In this document: positions 8,598-14,614 of the stretch, piece by piece
Layout: each line of letters opens with the position of its first letter
Numbering within the stretch: position 1 is the stretch's first letter
IMG/VR virus record: IMGVR_UViG_3300045116_000315
Span: 1-47,288 of that record
Source of the DNA: a virus
Length of the DNA: 47,288 nucleotides
Strand: one strand, 5' to 3'
Notes under the pieces: generated by a model
What the model saw: the letters and a program-made list of their open reading frames with translations, nothing else
What the model was told of the DNA's origin: nothing
Database searches by the model: none
Translations under genes and position numbers: made by a program

Positions 8598-10088
8598 ATG
8601 CCTGCCTCCTCCGCCGAGTTGCCTTCCACCCTCATCCCCCTCGACAAGATCGTCGTGCCGCCCGAGCGTCAGCGCGATAACGCCAAGGCCGATGGAGCCC
8701 TGTGCGATAGCATCGCGCGTGATGGCCTGCTCAACCCGATCGTCGTCCACCAGCAGGGCTCCGGCCACGACATCACCTATGTCCTCGTCGCAGGCGAACG
8801 CCGCCTTGACGCTCACCGGCAACTCAAGCGCACCAGCATCCGGGGCACCATCCTTGAGTCCCTCGATCCTCGGACCGCGTTCCGCATCGAGCTGGCTGAG
8901 AACGTCGCCCGCAAGCAGCTTAGCTGGCAGCAGGAAACCAAGGCTGTGGCTGACTACCACGCCATGCAGCTGCAGCATGTCGGCGCCATGTGGAACCAGC
9001 GCGGCACCGCCGCTGACCTTGGCATGAGCGAGACCGACGTCAGCCGAAAGCTGGCCGTCGCCAAGTGGCTCAGCGATGATGAAGTCGCCGCGTGCCCGAC
9101 GCTGCAAGGCGCGTTCAACCTCCTTGAGGGTCGGGCCCAGCGTGCGCTTGCAGCCGCTCAAAGCCGCGGCGTGGACGTGGTCGCAGGCATTAGCGCAGCG
9201 CTGCCTCCCTCCATCCCCGTCGGCGCCACGAAGGAGGAAAAGACGCGCATCCTCATGCAGAACATGGACCTCGGCGCCACTGTCACCACAGCCCTCGACA
9301 GCACGGCCAAGGCCCTGGAGGTCATCGCCGCGGGCGCTGAGGCCACCACCGCACTCGCCGCAGTACAGCAAGAGGAGCGCAAGCTGGCGGGCGGCAACAT
9401 CGTCACCGCCGACTTCCTCGAGTGGGCGGCCGAGTACGAGGGCCCGAAGTTTGACGTCCTGCACGTCGACTTCCCCTACGGCAAGGGCTACAAGGGGAGC
9501 AACACTCGGCGCACCGGCAAGGCTCACATCAACCCCACCTACGCTGACGATCCCGACATCTACTTCGGCCTCGTCGACGGCTTGTGCAACCTCCAGGACC
9601 GCATCGCCTTCCCAGCCGCGCACATGATCTTCTGGTTCGACATGCAGTACTATGCCTGGACCATCGAACGCTTGACGCAGGCAGGCTGGACCCTCGTCCA
9701 ACCCTTCCCGCTCATCTGGACGAAAGGATACACAGGTGTTGCCTCCGACACGAAGCGCCGGCCTCGTCACTGCTACGAGACTGCCCTGATGTTCAGCAGG
9801 GGTGATCGACGCATCAGCAAGCTGGTCAACGATCATTTCGAGTGCCCGCTCGACGAGTCGAAGCTGCATCTCAACCAAAAGCCCCTCCCCATGCTCCGGC
9901 ACTTCCTCAGCCTCGTCGTTGATGAGCACACGGCACTACTCGATCCCACGTGCGGCTCTGGGTCGGCCGTCGCGGCAGCCATGCAACTGCGGGCAGCACG
10001 AGTTCTTGGCGTCGAGCTTGACCCCGCTAACGCCGATGTGGCCCGCTACCTTATTCAGAAGCGAGCGCCCGTAGAGGAGCAGAACTAA
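8598..10088 (+). CDS. ParB-like domain fused to N4/N6 DNA methyltransferase
   Basis: A 496-residue two-domain protein. Residues about 10-85 form a ParB N-terminal domain (LIPLDKIVVPPERQR, GLLNPIVVHQ, VAGERRLDAHRQL), followed by helices including SETDVSRKLAVAKWL, a helix-turn-helix candidate. The C-terminal half is an amino-methyltransferase of the type with motif IV before motif I: DFPYG (291-295, a variant of DPPY), then LNQKP (425-429) and the AdoMet site DPTCGSGS (449-456). Such fusions occur in phages and mobile elements and are thought to modify DNA at sites chosen by the ParB/HTH part. Likely role is self-methylation against host restriction. It is the first gene after the terminator and structured leader, so it is probably regulated apart from its upstream neighbours. 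Confidence 0.88.
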   Translation: MPASSAELPSTLIPLDKIVVPPERQRDNAKADGALCDSIARDGLLNPIVVHQQGSGHDITYVLVAGERRLDAHRQLKRTSIRGTILESLDPRTAFRIELAENVARKQLSWQQETKAVADYHAMQLQHVGAMWNQRGTAADLGMSETDVSRKLAVAKWLSDDEVAACPTLQGAFNLLEGRAQRALAAAQSRGVDVVAGISAALPPSIPVGATKEEKTRILMQNMDLGATVTTALDSTAKALEVIAAGAEATTALAAVQQEERKLAGGNIVTADFLEWAAEYEGPKFDVLHVDFPYGKGYKGSNTRRTGKAHINPTYADDPDIYFGLVDGLCNLQDRIAFPAAHMIFWFDMQYYAWTIERLTQAGWTLVQPFPLIWTKGYTGVASDTKRRPRHCYETALMFSRGDRRISKLVNDHFECPLDESKLHLNQKPLPMLRHFLSLVVDEHTALLDPTCGSGSAVAAAMQLRAARVLGVELDPANADVARYLIQKRAPVEEQN

Positions 10089-10375
10089 TGTCTGATGTTG
10101 AAGAAACGCTCAGCAATCGTGGGACTCGTTACGGGCGCTTCCTCGATGGGGCACGTAGCTGGCGCGAACTGCAAGACGCCCTCGAGCGTCAGCCCGGCTG
10201 GGGCAATCTCATGCAGGACCAGCAGTACGCTGCCACCATGATTATGATGAAGCTGGCCCGCGCCATGAACGGCGACCCTGATAACACGGACAACTGGCAC
10301 GACATTCAGGGCTACGCCAAGCTGATCGAGGATCGCCTGCTTTCGCGAGGTAGCTATGCCCCTAAGCCTAGCTGA
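10088..10375 (+). CDS. DUF6378-like protein, 95 aa
   Basis: The core TRYGRFLDGARSWRELQDAL, then a tract with QYAATMIMMKLARAMNGDPDNTDNWHDI ordering and GYAKLIEDRL, matches a small helical phage family often annotated DUF6378. The family is usually found beside nucleotide-metabolism and replication genes; its spacing of Asp and His residues recalls all-alpha pyrophosphohydrolases, but the activity is unknown. ATG overlaps the stop of the methyltransferase gene (TAATG). Confidence 0.65.
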   Translation: MSDVEETLSNRGTRYGRFLDGARSWRELQDALERQPGWGNLMQDQQYAATMIMMKLARAMNGDPDNTDNWHDIQGYAKLIEDRLLSRGSYAPKPS

Positions 10376-10571
10376 GCGCATTGCGCAGATCGACCAGCAG
10401 GTCGCCAACCTCCTCACCGAACGGGAAGCACTTCAGAATGTCCTCGCCTCTTCCCAGCACGCCCCCAGCGCGGAGCTGGCCGATGTATGCACCTGCGACG
10501 AGACCAATCGTGGCAGCAGGCTCGACTGCCCCATTCACTTTGGTAATCCTTGGGGAAGCGCCGGGGGCTGA
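10356..10571 (+). CDS. Small putative zinc-binding protein, 71 aa
   Basis: ATG at 10356 with GAGG upstream, overlapping the end of the preceding gene by 20 bases. An N-terminal coiled-coil helix (AERIAQIDQQVANLLTEREAL) is followed by CTCDETNRGSRLDCPIHFG, a C-x-C...C-P-x-H arrangement that could hold a metal ion. The end overlaps the start of the glycosylase gene by nearly 90 bases in another frame, which is unusual here and leaves some doubt about one of the two starts. Confidence 0.55.
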   Translation: MPLSLAERIAQIDQQVANLLTEREALQNVLASSQHAPSAELADVCTCDETNRGSRLDCPIHFGNPWGSAGG

Positions 10572-11562
10572 CGAGGAGAAGGAGGGCCGGCCTTTCGTCG
10601 GCGCCTCCGGCCGCCTGCTGCGCAAGGAGCTCCTGCCGCAGGCCGGGCTTGACATTGCGCAGGCCCACGTCCTCAACACCTTCCTGCAGAGGCCACCGAA
10701 CAATGACCTCAAGCACTGGACCGCGAACAAGACCGAGCTCAAGAAGCTGGGCCTCGTCCCGCAAGGCGACCCTCTTAACAAGCGCTACCTGCTACCCGAG
10801 TATCGTTGGCAGCTGGCTGAGCTCGATACGCGTCTTCGCGAGCTCAAGCCGGACCTCATCATTTGCCTGGGCGGAACTGCCCTCTGGGCTGTCAGTGGTG
10901 ATGGTGCCATCGGGACTCACAGGGGCACGTTCTTCCAGTCGCGCTATGGCCTTGCTATTGCAACCTACCACCCCGCTGCACTACTTCGTCAGTGGTCGAA
11001 CCTTCCGCTGGCTTGGGCGGACCTTCGGAAAGCTGCGCAGCTTATAAAGGGCACCCTGCCGGAGCCCCTAACGCGCCGCCTCTACATCAACCCAACTTGG
11101 CAGGAGATGGGCCATGTCTATGCAGCTTTTGCACGCGATCCTTCTGCGCCGTTGGGGGTTGATATTGAGACTTGCCCTGCAATCGACCAGATCACGACGA
11201 TCGCCTTTGCGACACCTACGCTCGGCATCTGCATCCCCATCTGGGACAAGCAGCCGGGAGGGCTAGGCAACATCTACGCCTCAGTCGCCGACGAACGGCG
11301 CGCGTGGCGATGGATACAGCGTTTCGCTCGGCTTCCCAACCCAAAGGTTATGCAGAACGGACTGTATGACTCGCAATACCTACTGGATGCGCCGATTGAC
11401 ATCCGACTGCGCAACTGGCACGATGACACCGCCATCTTGCACCACGCCCTCCAACCTGAGCTCCCCAAGGCGCTTGGCACCCTCGCCAGCCTTTACCTGA
11501 ACGAGCCCAGCTGGAAGCAGATGCGGACGAGCAAGAAGGACGAGGCGAAAGCCGACGAGTAG
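10483..11562 (+). CDS. Uracil-DNA glycosylase domain fused to 3'-5' exonuclease (N-terminal part of split Pol A)
   Basis: A 359-residue protein. Residues about 18-190 form a family 4/5-type uracil-DNA glycosylase: VILGEAPG (21-28), GRPFVGASG (35-43), and the second motif YHPAAL (162-167). Residues about 215-345 carry a DnaQ/Pol I proofreading domain with ExoI DIET (227-230) and ExoII QNGLYDSQYLLD (291-302, N292 and D296). The protein stops after LASLYLNEPSW, before ExoIII, which is instead at the start of the polymerase gene 280 bases downstream. UDG-exonuclease-polymerase fusions exist in other phages; here the chain is cut in two. The Fe-S cysteines usual in family 4 glycosylases are absent. 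The ATG at 10483 has GGAG seven bases upstream. Confidence 0.85.
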   Translation: MYAPATRPIVAAGSTAPFTLVILGEAPGADEEKEGRPFVGASGRLLRKELLPQAGLDIAQAHVLNTFLQRPPNNDLKHWTANKTELKKLGLVPQGDPLNKRYLLPEYRWQLAELDTRLRELKPDLIICLGGTALWAVSGDGAIGTHRGTFFQSRYGLAIATYHPAALLRQWSNLPLAWADLRKAAQLIKGTLPEPLTRRLYINPTWQEMGHVYAAFARDPSAPLGVDIETCPAIDQITTIAFATPTLGICIPIWDKQPGGLGNIYASVADERRAWRWIQRFARLPNPKVMQNGLYDSQYLLDAPIDIRLRNWHDDTAILHHALQPELPKALGTLASLYLNEPSWKQMRTSKKDEAKADE

Positions 11563-11573
11563 GAGCAGCTACC

Positions 11574-11846
11574 GTGACGGATGATGAAAAGACTGAGCTC
11601 AAGGAGCTCTGGCAGAAGGTGTTACCGAAGGTAGACCTGATGCGCATGATGAACGGCGATCTCTGGTTCGTTGACGCTACGCCGCCACTCGCATTTCCCC
11701 TTCCAGGCGAAGAAGTGCCTATGACAATCGAGATGCGCCGGGCTGTATTCTGGGCCAGGTACTATGGGCGTCCCGCCAAATATAAGGTCTTTGGCACCTT
11801 CGACATGCGCGATGCTGAAGGCACTTTTGTAGACTGGATCAATTGA
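11574..11846 (+). CDS. Hypothetical protein inserted between the two polymerase genes, 90 aa
   Basis: Not recognised. GTG start preceded by TAGGAGCAGCTACC, the recurrent ribosome-binding cassette; the stop overlaps the polymerase ATG (TGATG). The sequence is helical at the N-terminus (DDEKTELKELWQKVL) then mixed, with conserved-looking hydrophobic/aromatic residues (MRRAVFWARYYG). It does not resemble a homing endonuclease or intron-encoded protein. Its location, exactly at the break in the exonuclease domain, is the interesting point: it may hold the two halves together, or simply be a later insertion. Confidence 0.65.
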   Translation: MTDDEKTELKELWQKVLPKVDLMRMMNGDLWFVDATPPLAFPLPGEEVPMTIEMRRAVFWARYYGRPAKYKVFGTFDMRDAEGTFVDWIN

Positions 11847-13378
11847 TGCCCTACATCGAGATGACGGGCGCCATCCCCTCTGGCCTCACCCCCTACGACA
11901 ACTATCAGGTCTACAACTGCCTCGACAGTTGCATCACCTCCCAGCTCCTCCCTGTCCTGCGCGCGGAGCTCAACCCTAACACCAGCGTCACGTACAACCG
12001 CGAGATGCGCGTGCTGGCGCTGTGCCTTGAGATGAGCAGCAAGGGCTTCCCCGTCGATCAGATGGCGCTGGCCGGTCTCATCTACGACCTGGACAAAGCG
12101 GCCGATCGTGCCCTGCTCCTCCTGCACCGCTTCTGCGAAGCAGTGGGCTTCCGCCCCGTCAACCCTCGTTCGCCGAAAGACGTGCCGGAGCTCTTCTACG
12201 AGCACCTGCGCCTGCCCGAAATCTGGGAGTTCGACAGGAAGACGAACACCCGCAAGCTCGCCGCGGACATCAAGGCGCTTGAGAAGCTGCGGACGCAGTA
12301 CCCCATCGCCGCTCCCTTCGTCAACGCCATCGTCAGCTATCGTGAGAACACGAAGATGGCCAGCGTGTTCAAGCGCGGGCTGGAGCCGGGGACGGGGAAC
12401 CTGCGCTGCAACTACTCGCCGAGCGGCACCGAGACCGGCCGCTTGTCGTCTCAACAGAACCCCTACGGGCGAGGCACCAATGGCCAGAACCTCACAGATC
12501 GTGTCAGGCAAGTTATCACGGCGCCTGAGGGATATGCGATACTCAACTTCGATCTCAAAACGGCCGAGAGCGTTGCTGTCGGCTACATCTCGGGAGACCG
12601 TGCTTACATCGAAGCATGTGAAGGAAGTGACCTTCATACAGCGGTATGTCGACTTGTGTGGCCTCACCTACCATGGGCAGGAGATAAGTCTGACAAGGCG
12701 CTTGCTGAGTCACCCTTCTATCGCCATTTCTCGTATCGAGATCAGGCAAAACGAGGAGGGCACGGCAGTAATTACTACGGTCAGCCTAGCACCATAGCTG
12801 GCATCATCAACGTCCCCACCAGCTTCGTCGAAAGCTTCCAGCGCCAATACTTCGAGGCGTTCCCCGGCATCCCAGAGTGGCACCTCGACGTCATCGCCCG
12901 CGTCCAGCGTGAAGGGGTCATTGTCACTCCTCTCCGTCGTGAGCGCCGTTTTTGGGGTCGTCCTGATGACAAGGCGACGTGGCGCGAGGCCATCGCGTAT
13001 GGCCCGCAGTCGCTCGTCGGCGACGTGATGAACGAGGGGCTGATCCAAGTCATGACCTGGATCAAGGCGAACATGGACAACAAGACCTGGAAGCTGAATA
13101 GGCAGCTGGCCGACCTGCGCTCGCAAATCCACGACGCCGGTGTCTTCCTCGTGCCGCTTGAGGCCCTCGAAGAGGTCGCGCCGATCATCGAGCAGAAGCT
13201 GCTGTTCCCTGTCGAGTTCCCCGGCATCGGCACCATGTCGATCCGCAGCGACATGATGGTGGGCAAGCGCTTCTGCAAGAAGCCGAAGGGCGGCAAGTGG
13301 AAGCTGCACCCGGTCATGTCGCAGGGCTTAGCGGATTGGGAACCGGGTCAGCCCCTGCATTGGAAGGACGCAGCATAA
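11846..13378 (+). CDS. Family A DNA polymerase (polymerase domain plus ExoIII motif)
   Basis: A 510-residue replicative polymerase. The N-terminus carries VYNCLDSCITSQLL (Y23, D27), the ExoIII motif that should complete the exonuclease domain of the preceding glycosylase/exonuclease protein. The polymerase motifs follow: TETGRLSSQQ (195-204), motif A NFDLKTAES (D236, E241), the O-helix R298-K302-H306-Y310 in YRDQAKRGGHGSNYYG, and motif C QIHDAGVFLV (H429, D430). Both catalytic aspartates are present. The O-helix residue equal to Phe762 of E. coli Pol I is His306, and the residue after motif C Asp is Ala instead of Glu. There is no 5' nuclease domain, as usual for phage polymerases. Start ATG overlaps the upstream stop. 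Confidence 0.95.
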   Translation: MPYIEMTGAIPSGLTPYDNYQVYNCLDSCITSQLLPVLRAELNPNTSVTYNREMRVLALCLEMSSKGFPVDQMALAGLIYDLDKAADRALLLLHRFCEAVGFRPVNPRSPKDVPELFYEHLRLPEIWEFDRKTNTRKLAADIKALEKLRTQYPIAAPFVNAIVSYRENTKMASVFKRGLEPGTGNLRCNYSPSGTETGRLSSQQNPYGRGTNGQNLTDRVRQVITAPEGYAILNFDLKTAESVAVGYISGDRAYIEACEGSDLHTAVCRLVWPHLPWAGDKSDKALAESPFYRHFSYRDQAKRGGHGSNYYGQPSTIAGIINVPTSFVESFQRQYFEAFPGIPEWHLDVIARVQREGVIVTPLRRERRFWGRPDDKATWREAIAYGPQSLVGDVMNEGLIQVMTWIKANMDNKTWKLNRQLADLRSQIHDAGVFLVPLEALEEVAPIIEQKLLFPVEFPGIGTMSIRSDMMVGKRFCKKPKGGKWKLHPVMSQGLADWEPGQPLHWKDAA

Positions 13379-13381
13379 GTC

Positions 13382-14614
13382 ATGGCTGGGGGCAGGCGTC
13401 TGAGCAACTACGTGGAGTCCTTCTGCGAGTTTGCGACAATCTACAACACCACTCCACTCTTCGCACGCTACGCCGCGCTCTGGATGATCGGCACGGTGGT
13501 CGGCCGCGCTGTGGGCATGAAGGCCCGCAACAACGACCTGCACCCGAACTTCTTCATCCAGCTAGTCGGCGGGCCGGGCACCGGCAAGTCGCAGGCGATC
13601 AAGAGCGTGCGTCGCATCATGCTCAAGGCGGTCAAGAGCGTTAGCCTCATCCCTGCTTCCATCACCCGCGCGGGCATGGAGGACTATATGAAGGGCAACC
13701 TTCAGCGTCGGCGCACGCCCGATGGCGCGATGCTGATGGCAAACGAGTGCCTTGGCCTGAGCGATGAAATGCAGGGCATCCTGCCGGATCAAGACCTTGG
13801 CCACCTGACCCTCTACAACATCCTCTATGATCTGCCGGGCCTGCACGTCGCCGTCACCCGCACGCACGGCGAGGTGCGGTTGGAGTCCCCATACTGCAGC
13901 TTGCTCACCGGCGCACAGCCCGCCTTCCTCGCAACCACCATGCCGGAGCAGGCGTGGGGCATGGGCTTCATGAGCCGCAGCATCATGGTCTTCGACCAGC
14001 CCCGCGCACGCAAGAGCATGTTCGCCGCCGTCGAGACCAACCCGAAGCTGGAAGCCGACCTCATCGCCGACCTCCGCCACATCCACGACAACCTCACCGG
14101 ATGGATGACGTGGAGCAAGGAGGCCATCGCCCTCTACGAGGAGTGGTTCGTGAAGCATGGCGGGCTGCCGATCCCGCAGGCCAAGCGCCTCGCCATGGGC
14201 TACAACAGCCGCCGCGAGCTCCACATGACCAAGCTGGCCATGGTGATCAGCATCGCCCGTAGCGATAGCCTCCGCGTGGAGCAGCAGGACGTTGCCGAGG
14301 CCATCAAGCTGCTGCTCTTCACCGAGGAGCGGATGAAGATGGTGTTCACGGAGATGAGCGCAACCGGCAGCGCAGTGGCCCTCGAGGACGCCCTCGACAT
14401 GGTCCGCAGCGCTACGCTGGAGGGCGGCGCCGTGGAGGAGGCGCAGCTGATCGACGTGCTCATGCAGCGGTTCCCGCCGACGCAAATCCACAGCATCATC
14501 GAGAACCTACTTGTCAGCCGCGCCATCCAGAAGGCGGATATGAAGCAGCACAAGTATATCGACGCCAAGGGCTTCAGGAAGTTTGTGGCGTCACCTCGGC
14601 CAAGCGGGCTGTAA
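13382..14614 (+). CDS. DUF3987-type replicative helicase/ATPase
   Basis: A 410-residue ATPase with Walker A GGPGTGKS (63-70) and an acidic Walker B-like segment GLSDEMQG around residues 125-132. The Arg-containing region that follows (TRTHGEVRLESPYCSLLTGAQPAF) is ordered as in DUF3987/phage primase-helicase C-terminal ATPases. The last 70 residues look like a winged-helix domain (VEEAQLIDVLMQRF, IHSIIENLLVSRAIQK). Directly follows the polymerase gene with a three-base gap; no DnaB- or T7-type helicase is seen elsewhere, so this is the likely replicative helicase. Its TAA stop lies inside the left arm of a perfect 14-bp inverted repeat. Confidence 0.75.
   Translation: MAGGRRLSNYVESFCEFATIYNTTPLFARYAALWMIGTVVGRAVGMKARNNDLHPNFFIQLVGGPGTGKSQAIKSVRRIMLKAVKSVSLIPASITRAGMEDYMKGNLQRRRTPDGAMLMANECLGLSDEMQGILPDQDLGHLTLYNILYDLPGLHVAVTRTHGEVRLESPYCSLLTGAQPAFLATTMPEQAWGMGFMSRSIMVFDQPRARKSMFAAVETNPKLEADLIADLRHIHDNLTGWMTWSKEAIALYEEWFVKHGGLPIPQAKRLAMGYNSRRELHMTKLAMVISIARSDSLRVEQQDVAEAIKLLLFTEERMKMVFTEMSATGSAVALEDALDMVRSATLEGGAVEEAQLIDVLMQRFPPTQIHSIIENLLVSRAIQKADMKQHKYIDAKGFRKFVASPRPSGL

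Follow-up and report, generated by a model that had tools for sequence, protein, structure and literature searches.

In a podovirus-like phage, the replicative family A DNA polymerase is, very probably, a two-subunit enzyme, its gene having been split once, long ago, between the ExoII and ExoIII parts of the 3'-5' exonuclease domain. The proofreading sites of family A polymerases are, by the textbook, built from a single chain. In the window analysed here, 47,288 nucleotides forming one metagenomic virus contig (IMG/VR record IMGVR_UViG_3300045116_000315), the exonuclease gene, a 90-residue gene and the polymerase gene each have a reading frame of their own and are separated by in-frame stops. 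The original prediction, made from the sequence alone, gave the coordinates, frames, motifs and coupled junctions of these three genes as we find them. It also placed ExoI and ExoII on the first protein and ExoIII on the polymerase protein; indeed, D227/E229 and N292/D296 lie on the former and Y23/D27 on the latter, and no single chain carries ExoI-III. The features are:

10483..11562, plus strand: gene of 359 residues for a UDG-like domain (residues ~1-193) and the N-terminal part of a PolA-type 3'-5' exonuclease (~196-356), from Pfam, PHROG and AF2
11161..11169, plus strand: ExoI, D227-x-E229 (DIE); D and E each in 67/67 split pairs (one row truncated)
11356..11370, plus strand: ExoII, N292..D296 (NGLYD); N in 67/68 and D in 68/68 split pairs
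11561..11565, plus strand: ribosome-binding-site-like AGGAG overlapping the stop of the exonuclease gene, from sequence comparison
11574..11846, plus strand: 90-residue gene in the gap, GTG start, its stop overlapping the polymerase start as TGATG; no known family
11846..13378, plus strand: gene of 510 residues for the last exonuclease helix (ExoIII) and a complete family A polymerase, from Pfam and AF2
11912..11926, plus strand: ExoIII, Y23..D27 (YNCLD), within predicted helix 16-40; Y in 67/68 and D in 68/68 split pairs, from alignment to PolA
12551..13135, plus strand: polymerase motifs A (D236, E241), B (R298, K302, Y310) and C (H429, D430), from residue conservation

Profile searches place the two flanking proteins end to end on one polymerase. 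The 10483-11562 protein matches UDG (Pfam, 3.3e-19) and the 11846-13378 protein matches DNA_pol_A (Pfam, 1.1e-30), and both match PHROG 17 (DNA polymerase) over adjacent stretches of the profile, 555-789 and 802-1235, respectively. On the bacterial PolA of Acinetobacter (L165) the first-half profile aligns at 340-449 and the second-half profile at 493-921, with no overlap, the second alignment beginning on YAAED, the counterpart of the YNCLD of ExoIII. By sequence profile, Klenow is likewise covered from chain position 13 or 14 to 124 by the first protein and from 173 to 604 by the second. AF2 models, with each chain modelled alone and the row of the cultured phage Kuura (below) left out of the underlying alignments, give the same division: residues 1-191 of the first protein (pLDDT 91.7) match family 4 UDGs (Z 19.2 to 1ui0) and residues 196-356 match Klenow 1kfs 324-483 (Z 13.2, 3.6 Å, 152 aligned), and the polymerase protein (pLDDT 92.3) matches 1kfs 466-928 (Z 32.2, 4.4 Å, 423 aligned). 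The ExoIII-like motif therefore falls on the exonuclease fold, both in the alignment to bacterial PolA and as a predicted helix. Sequence and predicted fold together indicate that the products of the two genes complement each other as parts of one polymerase and, with the motifs on separate chains, support the earlier proposal of an exonuclease site assembled from two polypeptides. The divided exonuclease leaves the assignment of the polymerase domain to family A unaffected, as the DNA_pol_A fold and motifs A, B and C are all present by Pfam, motif residues and Klenow fold.

Viral contigs were searched with both halves and read via stop-to-stop ORFs and profiles, yielding the same break in 105 loci (82 distinct), a single-chain form in 36 loci and a break elsewhere in 6 loci. 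In a polymerase tree of 106 rows, built by quick search and rooted on PolA outgroups, the split rows group as a single clade with 68 members (SH-aLRT 99), which takes one change of state, single-chain forms occupy several branches outside it, and re-fusion is seen in 0/68 sampled split-clade rows. The tree is thus most simply read as one fission, without re-fusion among the sampled rows. Unsplit relatives, a search for which had been suggested as a check, thus exist as single-chain UDG-exo-pol forms outside the split clade. The occurrence of the same break in all close relatives, the retention of the exonuclease residues in 67-68 split pairs and the non-overlapping alignment of both halves to one PolA argue that the break is not due to chance. 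The original prediction called it unusual, which holds within the literature searched; it is, however, not a one-off, being fixed throughout a large clade. The cultured Caulobacter phage Kuura (OQ067476) is split at the same point, with the first half annotated as a hypothetical protein; the Kuura article (PMC9959647) names the polymerase itself, and its main text has no mention of a split under the terms polymerase, exonuclease or glycosylase. As for links to prophages or hosts, a search of genome contigs gave no more than three from bacterial MAGs, of which two are split.

The gap between the halves ranges from 1 to 3314 nt across the clade. The nearest relatives (L006, L007, L008, L010 and L017) keep the split with a gap of 1-31 nt and no gene. 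In L006, which is 82% identical, TAGGAGCAGCT follows the exonuclease stop and leads directly into the polymerase start; the same TAGGAGCAGCT is found in this phage (at the AGGAG of 11561..11565), but here the 90-residue gene lies between the site and the polymerase. Other gaps hold genes unrelated to it: a 60-residue P-loop-like ORF in L009, two other small genes in Kuura and, in one split locus, a ribonucleotide reductase. A DUF7768 or DUF1937 gene (nucleoside 2-deoxyribosyltransferase-like superfamily) is present in the gap of 44/82 distinct split loci and lies within 120 nt of the polymerase in 40 of these 44 (e.g. L053:4612-4965 and L095:6241-6558). For the 90-residue protein, searches of Pfam, PHROGs, phages and viral contigs gave no match, and plasmid matches were at chance level only. 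Its gene has a GC3 of 0.64, compared to 0.72 and 0.78 for the flanking halves, and this low value together with the lack of detectable relatives is consistent with a recent acquisition. Among the sequences searched the gene is specific to this phage, and the comparison of loci indicates that it is incidental and not part of the split pattern.

It had been suggested that the third protein bridges the two halves, as its gene occupies the break and is coupled in translation to that of the polymerase. Such a structural role is highly unlikely, given that relatives at 50-82% identity keep the split without the gene and with gaps of 1-31 nt, that unrelated genes (the P-loop-like ORF, DUF7768/DUF1937, ribonucleotide reductase) take its place at other split loci, and that no homologue of the protein was found in the collections searched. 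There is similarly little to commend the idea that an intron, a split intein or programmed recoding merges both frames into one polymerase. While phage polymerase genes with introns or split inteins have been described (PMC7156551, PMC6892783), and some members of this very family contain inteins, Rfam gave no match at E<=1 in 10300-13500, the 1-31 nt gaps of five relatives could not accommodate an intron, and chain 1 continues only 14 residues past the conserved SWK and chain 2 begins ~22 residues before ExoIII, too short for intein halves. Neither an intron RNA fold (by Rfam) nor intein blocks (by chain-end lengths) were found at the break. Nor is a conserved recoding signal apparent, as stops (TGA 58, TAA 33, TAG 14) and relative frames (43/33/29) are mixed across the 105 loci. 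In L007 (3927-6551) the halves are in the same frame, and reading TAG as a residue would give one chain. We therefore see only a very slim chance that the frames are joined; RNA splicing, named at the outset as a result that would overturn the split, is contradicted for the clade by the tiny gaps and the lack of an Rfam intron match. An artefact of sequencing or assembly, or a recent pseudogenisation, might be suspected in a single metagenomic contig, but the same break occurs in 82 distinct loci and a cultured isolate, and the ORFs are intact and under selection, which reduces the probability of such an origin to almost nil.

Selection also bears on whether the exonuclease is vestigial, with chain 1 serving as a UDG-like factor or recruiter, chain 2 polymerising without proofreading and the Exo motifs surviving as relics. 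The degeneration of the UDG motif in several members indicates that domains of chain 1 can lose catalysis. Relics would decay, however, whereas the six exonuclease residues are near-invariant at median pairwise identities within the split clade of only ~44% (exonuclease half) and ~41% (polymerase half), and pairwise dN/dS is low (0.07-0.31) across all parts, signifying purifying selection on both halves. We thus regard a vestigial exonuclease as very unlikely for the clade, though some members could have lost the activity without visible change in the motifs. The near-invariance of these residues in 67-68 split pairs instead points to a two-polypeptide proofreading site under selection, and the pattern of substitution indicates that the split enzyme is functional. 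Substitution is faster in the ExoIII segment (polymerase residues 1-45; dN/dS 0.23-0.31) than in the remainder. Residues of the polymerase motifs are also kept in the split clade (A-D, B-R, B-K, B-Y and C-D 68/68; C-H 61/68), and the distances measured for one half correlate with those for the other (r 0.73; 0/1000 permutations as high), as expected from their joint inheritance.

The reading we favour, a two-subunit polymerase derived from one old fission between the ExoII and ExoIII segments, would have chain 1 supply the UDG-like domain along with the main part of the exonuclease, ExoI and ExoII included, and chain 2 the ExoIII helix and the whole polymerase, both translated from one operon. 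The chains most likely dock as the contiguous domain of Klenow does, and we infer that they associate physically. The metal-binding proofreading site (D227, E229 and D296 of chain 1; Y23 and D27 of chain 2) would then be completed only in the heterodimer, which is where exonuclease activity would be expected. The DNA between the halves would serve as a normal site for a gene within the operon, occupied in this phage by the 90-residue gene, which is probably dispensable for the enzyme.

The N-terminal domain of chain 1 is less readily assigned an activity. The 10483-11562 protein has the UDG fold together with the GEAPGADEE and HPAA motifs of the family 4/UdgX type, but residues 1-195 contain a single cysteine (C128) in place of the four expected to bind an iron-sulphur cluster, and because of this we term the domain UDG-like and claim no activity for it. 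The UDG motifs are degenerate in several members, with no GEAPG in L010 (L010:3986-4999) and W for P in 27/62; L001:5992-7101 is a further example. The domain (10483-11049 in this phage) may therefore be a structural or DNA-binding one.

Split phage polymerases are already known, and what is new, in the literature searched, is the position of the break between ExoII and ExoIII. Single-chain UDG-exo-pol proteins occur in phages, as the original prediction noted, in Microcystis phage Mel-JY34 (PP438425), vir526 and MW202489, and a structure is available for that of phiLo (9qhs). These resemble the split form in domain order, motifs and operon neighbours, Mel-JY34 sharing with this phage a downstream DUF3987 helicase/primase, but they consist of a single polypeptide in which a short linker connects ExoII to ExoIII, and those in the tree lie outside the split clade. 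A precedent is the 43A/43B pair of the T4-like Aeromonas phages 25 and 44RR, likewise a two-chain replicative polymerase with a gene or untranslated stretch at the break; the phage 25 proteins, the closest tested case, co-purify and polymerise (PMC2988022). That enzyme, however, belongs to family B, its halves are separated by a homing endonuclease or intercistronic insert, and a UDG domain is not mentioned (PMC2988022). No such insert is recognisable here, where the 90-residue gene matches no family and relatives have DUF7768/DUF1937 genes or 1-31 nt.

Family A polymerases in two ORFs, with a small ORF or 'intron' between, have been described in the OM43 phages MEP401/402 (PMC10580990) and, as a pol-gamma type, in cyanophage Mic1 (PMC7156551). 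They differ in that the break falls in the polymerase domain: all Exo motifs of Mic1 are explicitly in the first chain (PMC7156551), and MEP401/402 keep the exonuclease domain there (PMC10580990). A second split class (L005, L103, L123, L141, L142 and L158), found among the single-chain relatives in our set, is broken just before polymerase motif A, with 20-851 nt between the halves and about three independent origins in the tree, matching the published MEP401/402 arrangement. A phage PolA-type exonuclease as a separate protein is also known from ExnV1 (7r0t) and Thermus phage G20c PolI (PMC9629493), but ExnV1, regarded by its authors as truncated, has a complete exonuclease domain, with all Exo motifs, the ExoIII Asp included, on one chain (PMC9629493). 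Open-licence literature on split polymerases, UDG fusions and separate exonuclease genes yielded no report of a family A polymerase split between ExoII and ExoIII; an earlier report elsewhere is possible.

A long-lived clade with a divided active site offers a natural, testable system for communication between polymerase and exonuclease, in which both activities can be taken apart, titrated and put back together with no need for engineering. Automated annotation will overlook the exonuclease half, as with the 'hypothetical protein' of Kuura, and take the polymerase as one without proofreading. More tentatively, and with rather more doubt than confidence, we propose that an obligate two-subunit family A polymerase, with its proofreading metal site across the interface and no re-fusion, extends to the whole clade and that genes of nucleotide metabolism are accommodated in the gap; a possible reason is that, with a dissociable proofreading/UDG subunit, the phage could adjust its fidelity or exchange that subunit.

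Motif C reads HDA or HDS, not HDE, almost throughout the family, split and fused alike (HDA in this phage, 13130-13138). Intein-like inserts, mostly of the form CLT.DHEVLTP...VTGN, occur at several conserved polymerase positions in the split members L076-L079, L081, L083, L084 and L089, with two in L084. In L142:4890-7409, whose polymerase is also split at motif A, an intein-like insert of ~260 residues lies exactly in ExoIII (YN / CLTGD...VVVHN / CED). Upstream of the exonuclease gene in this phage, a ParB N-terminal domain and an N6/N4 DNA methyltransferase are joined in one gene (8598-10088).
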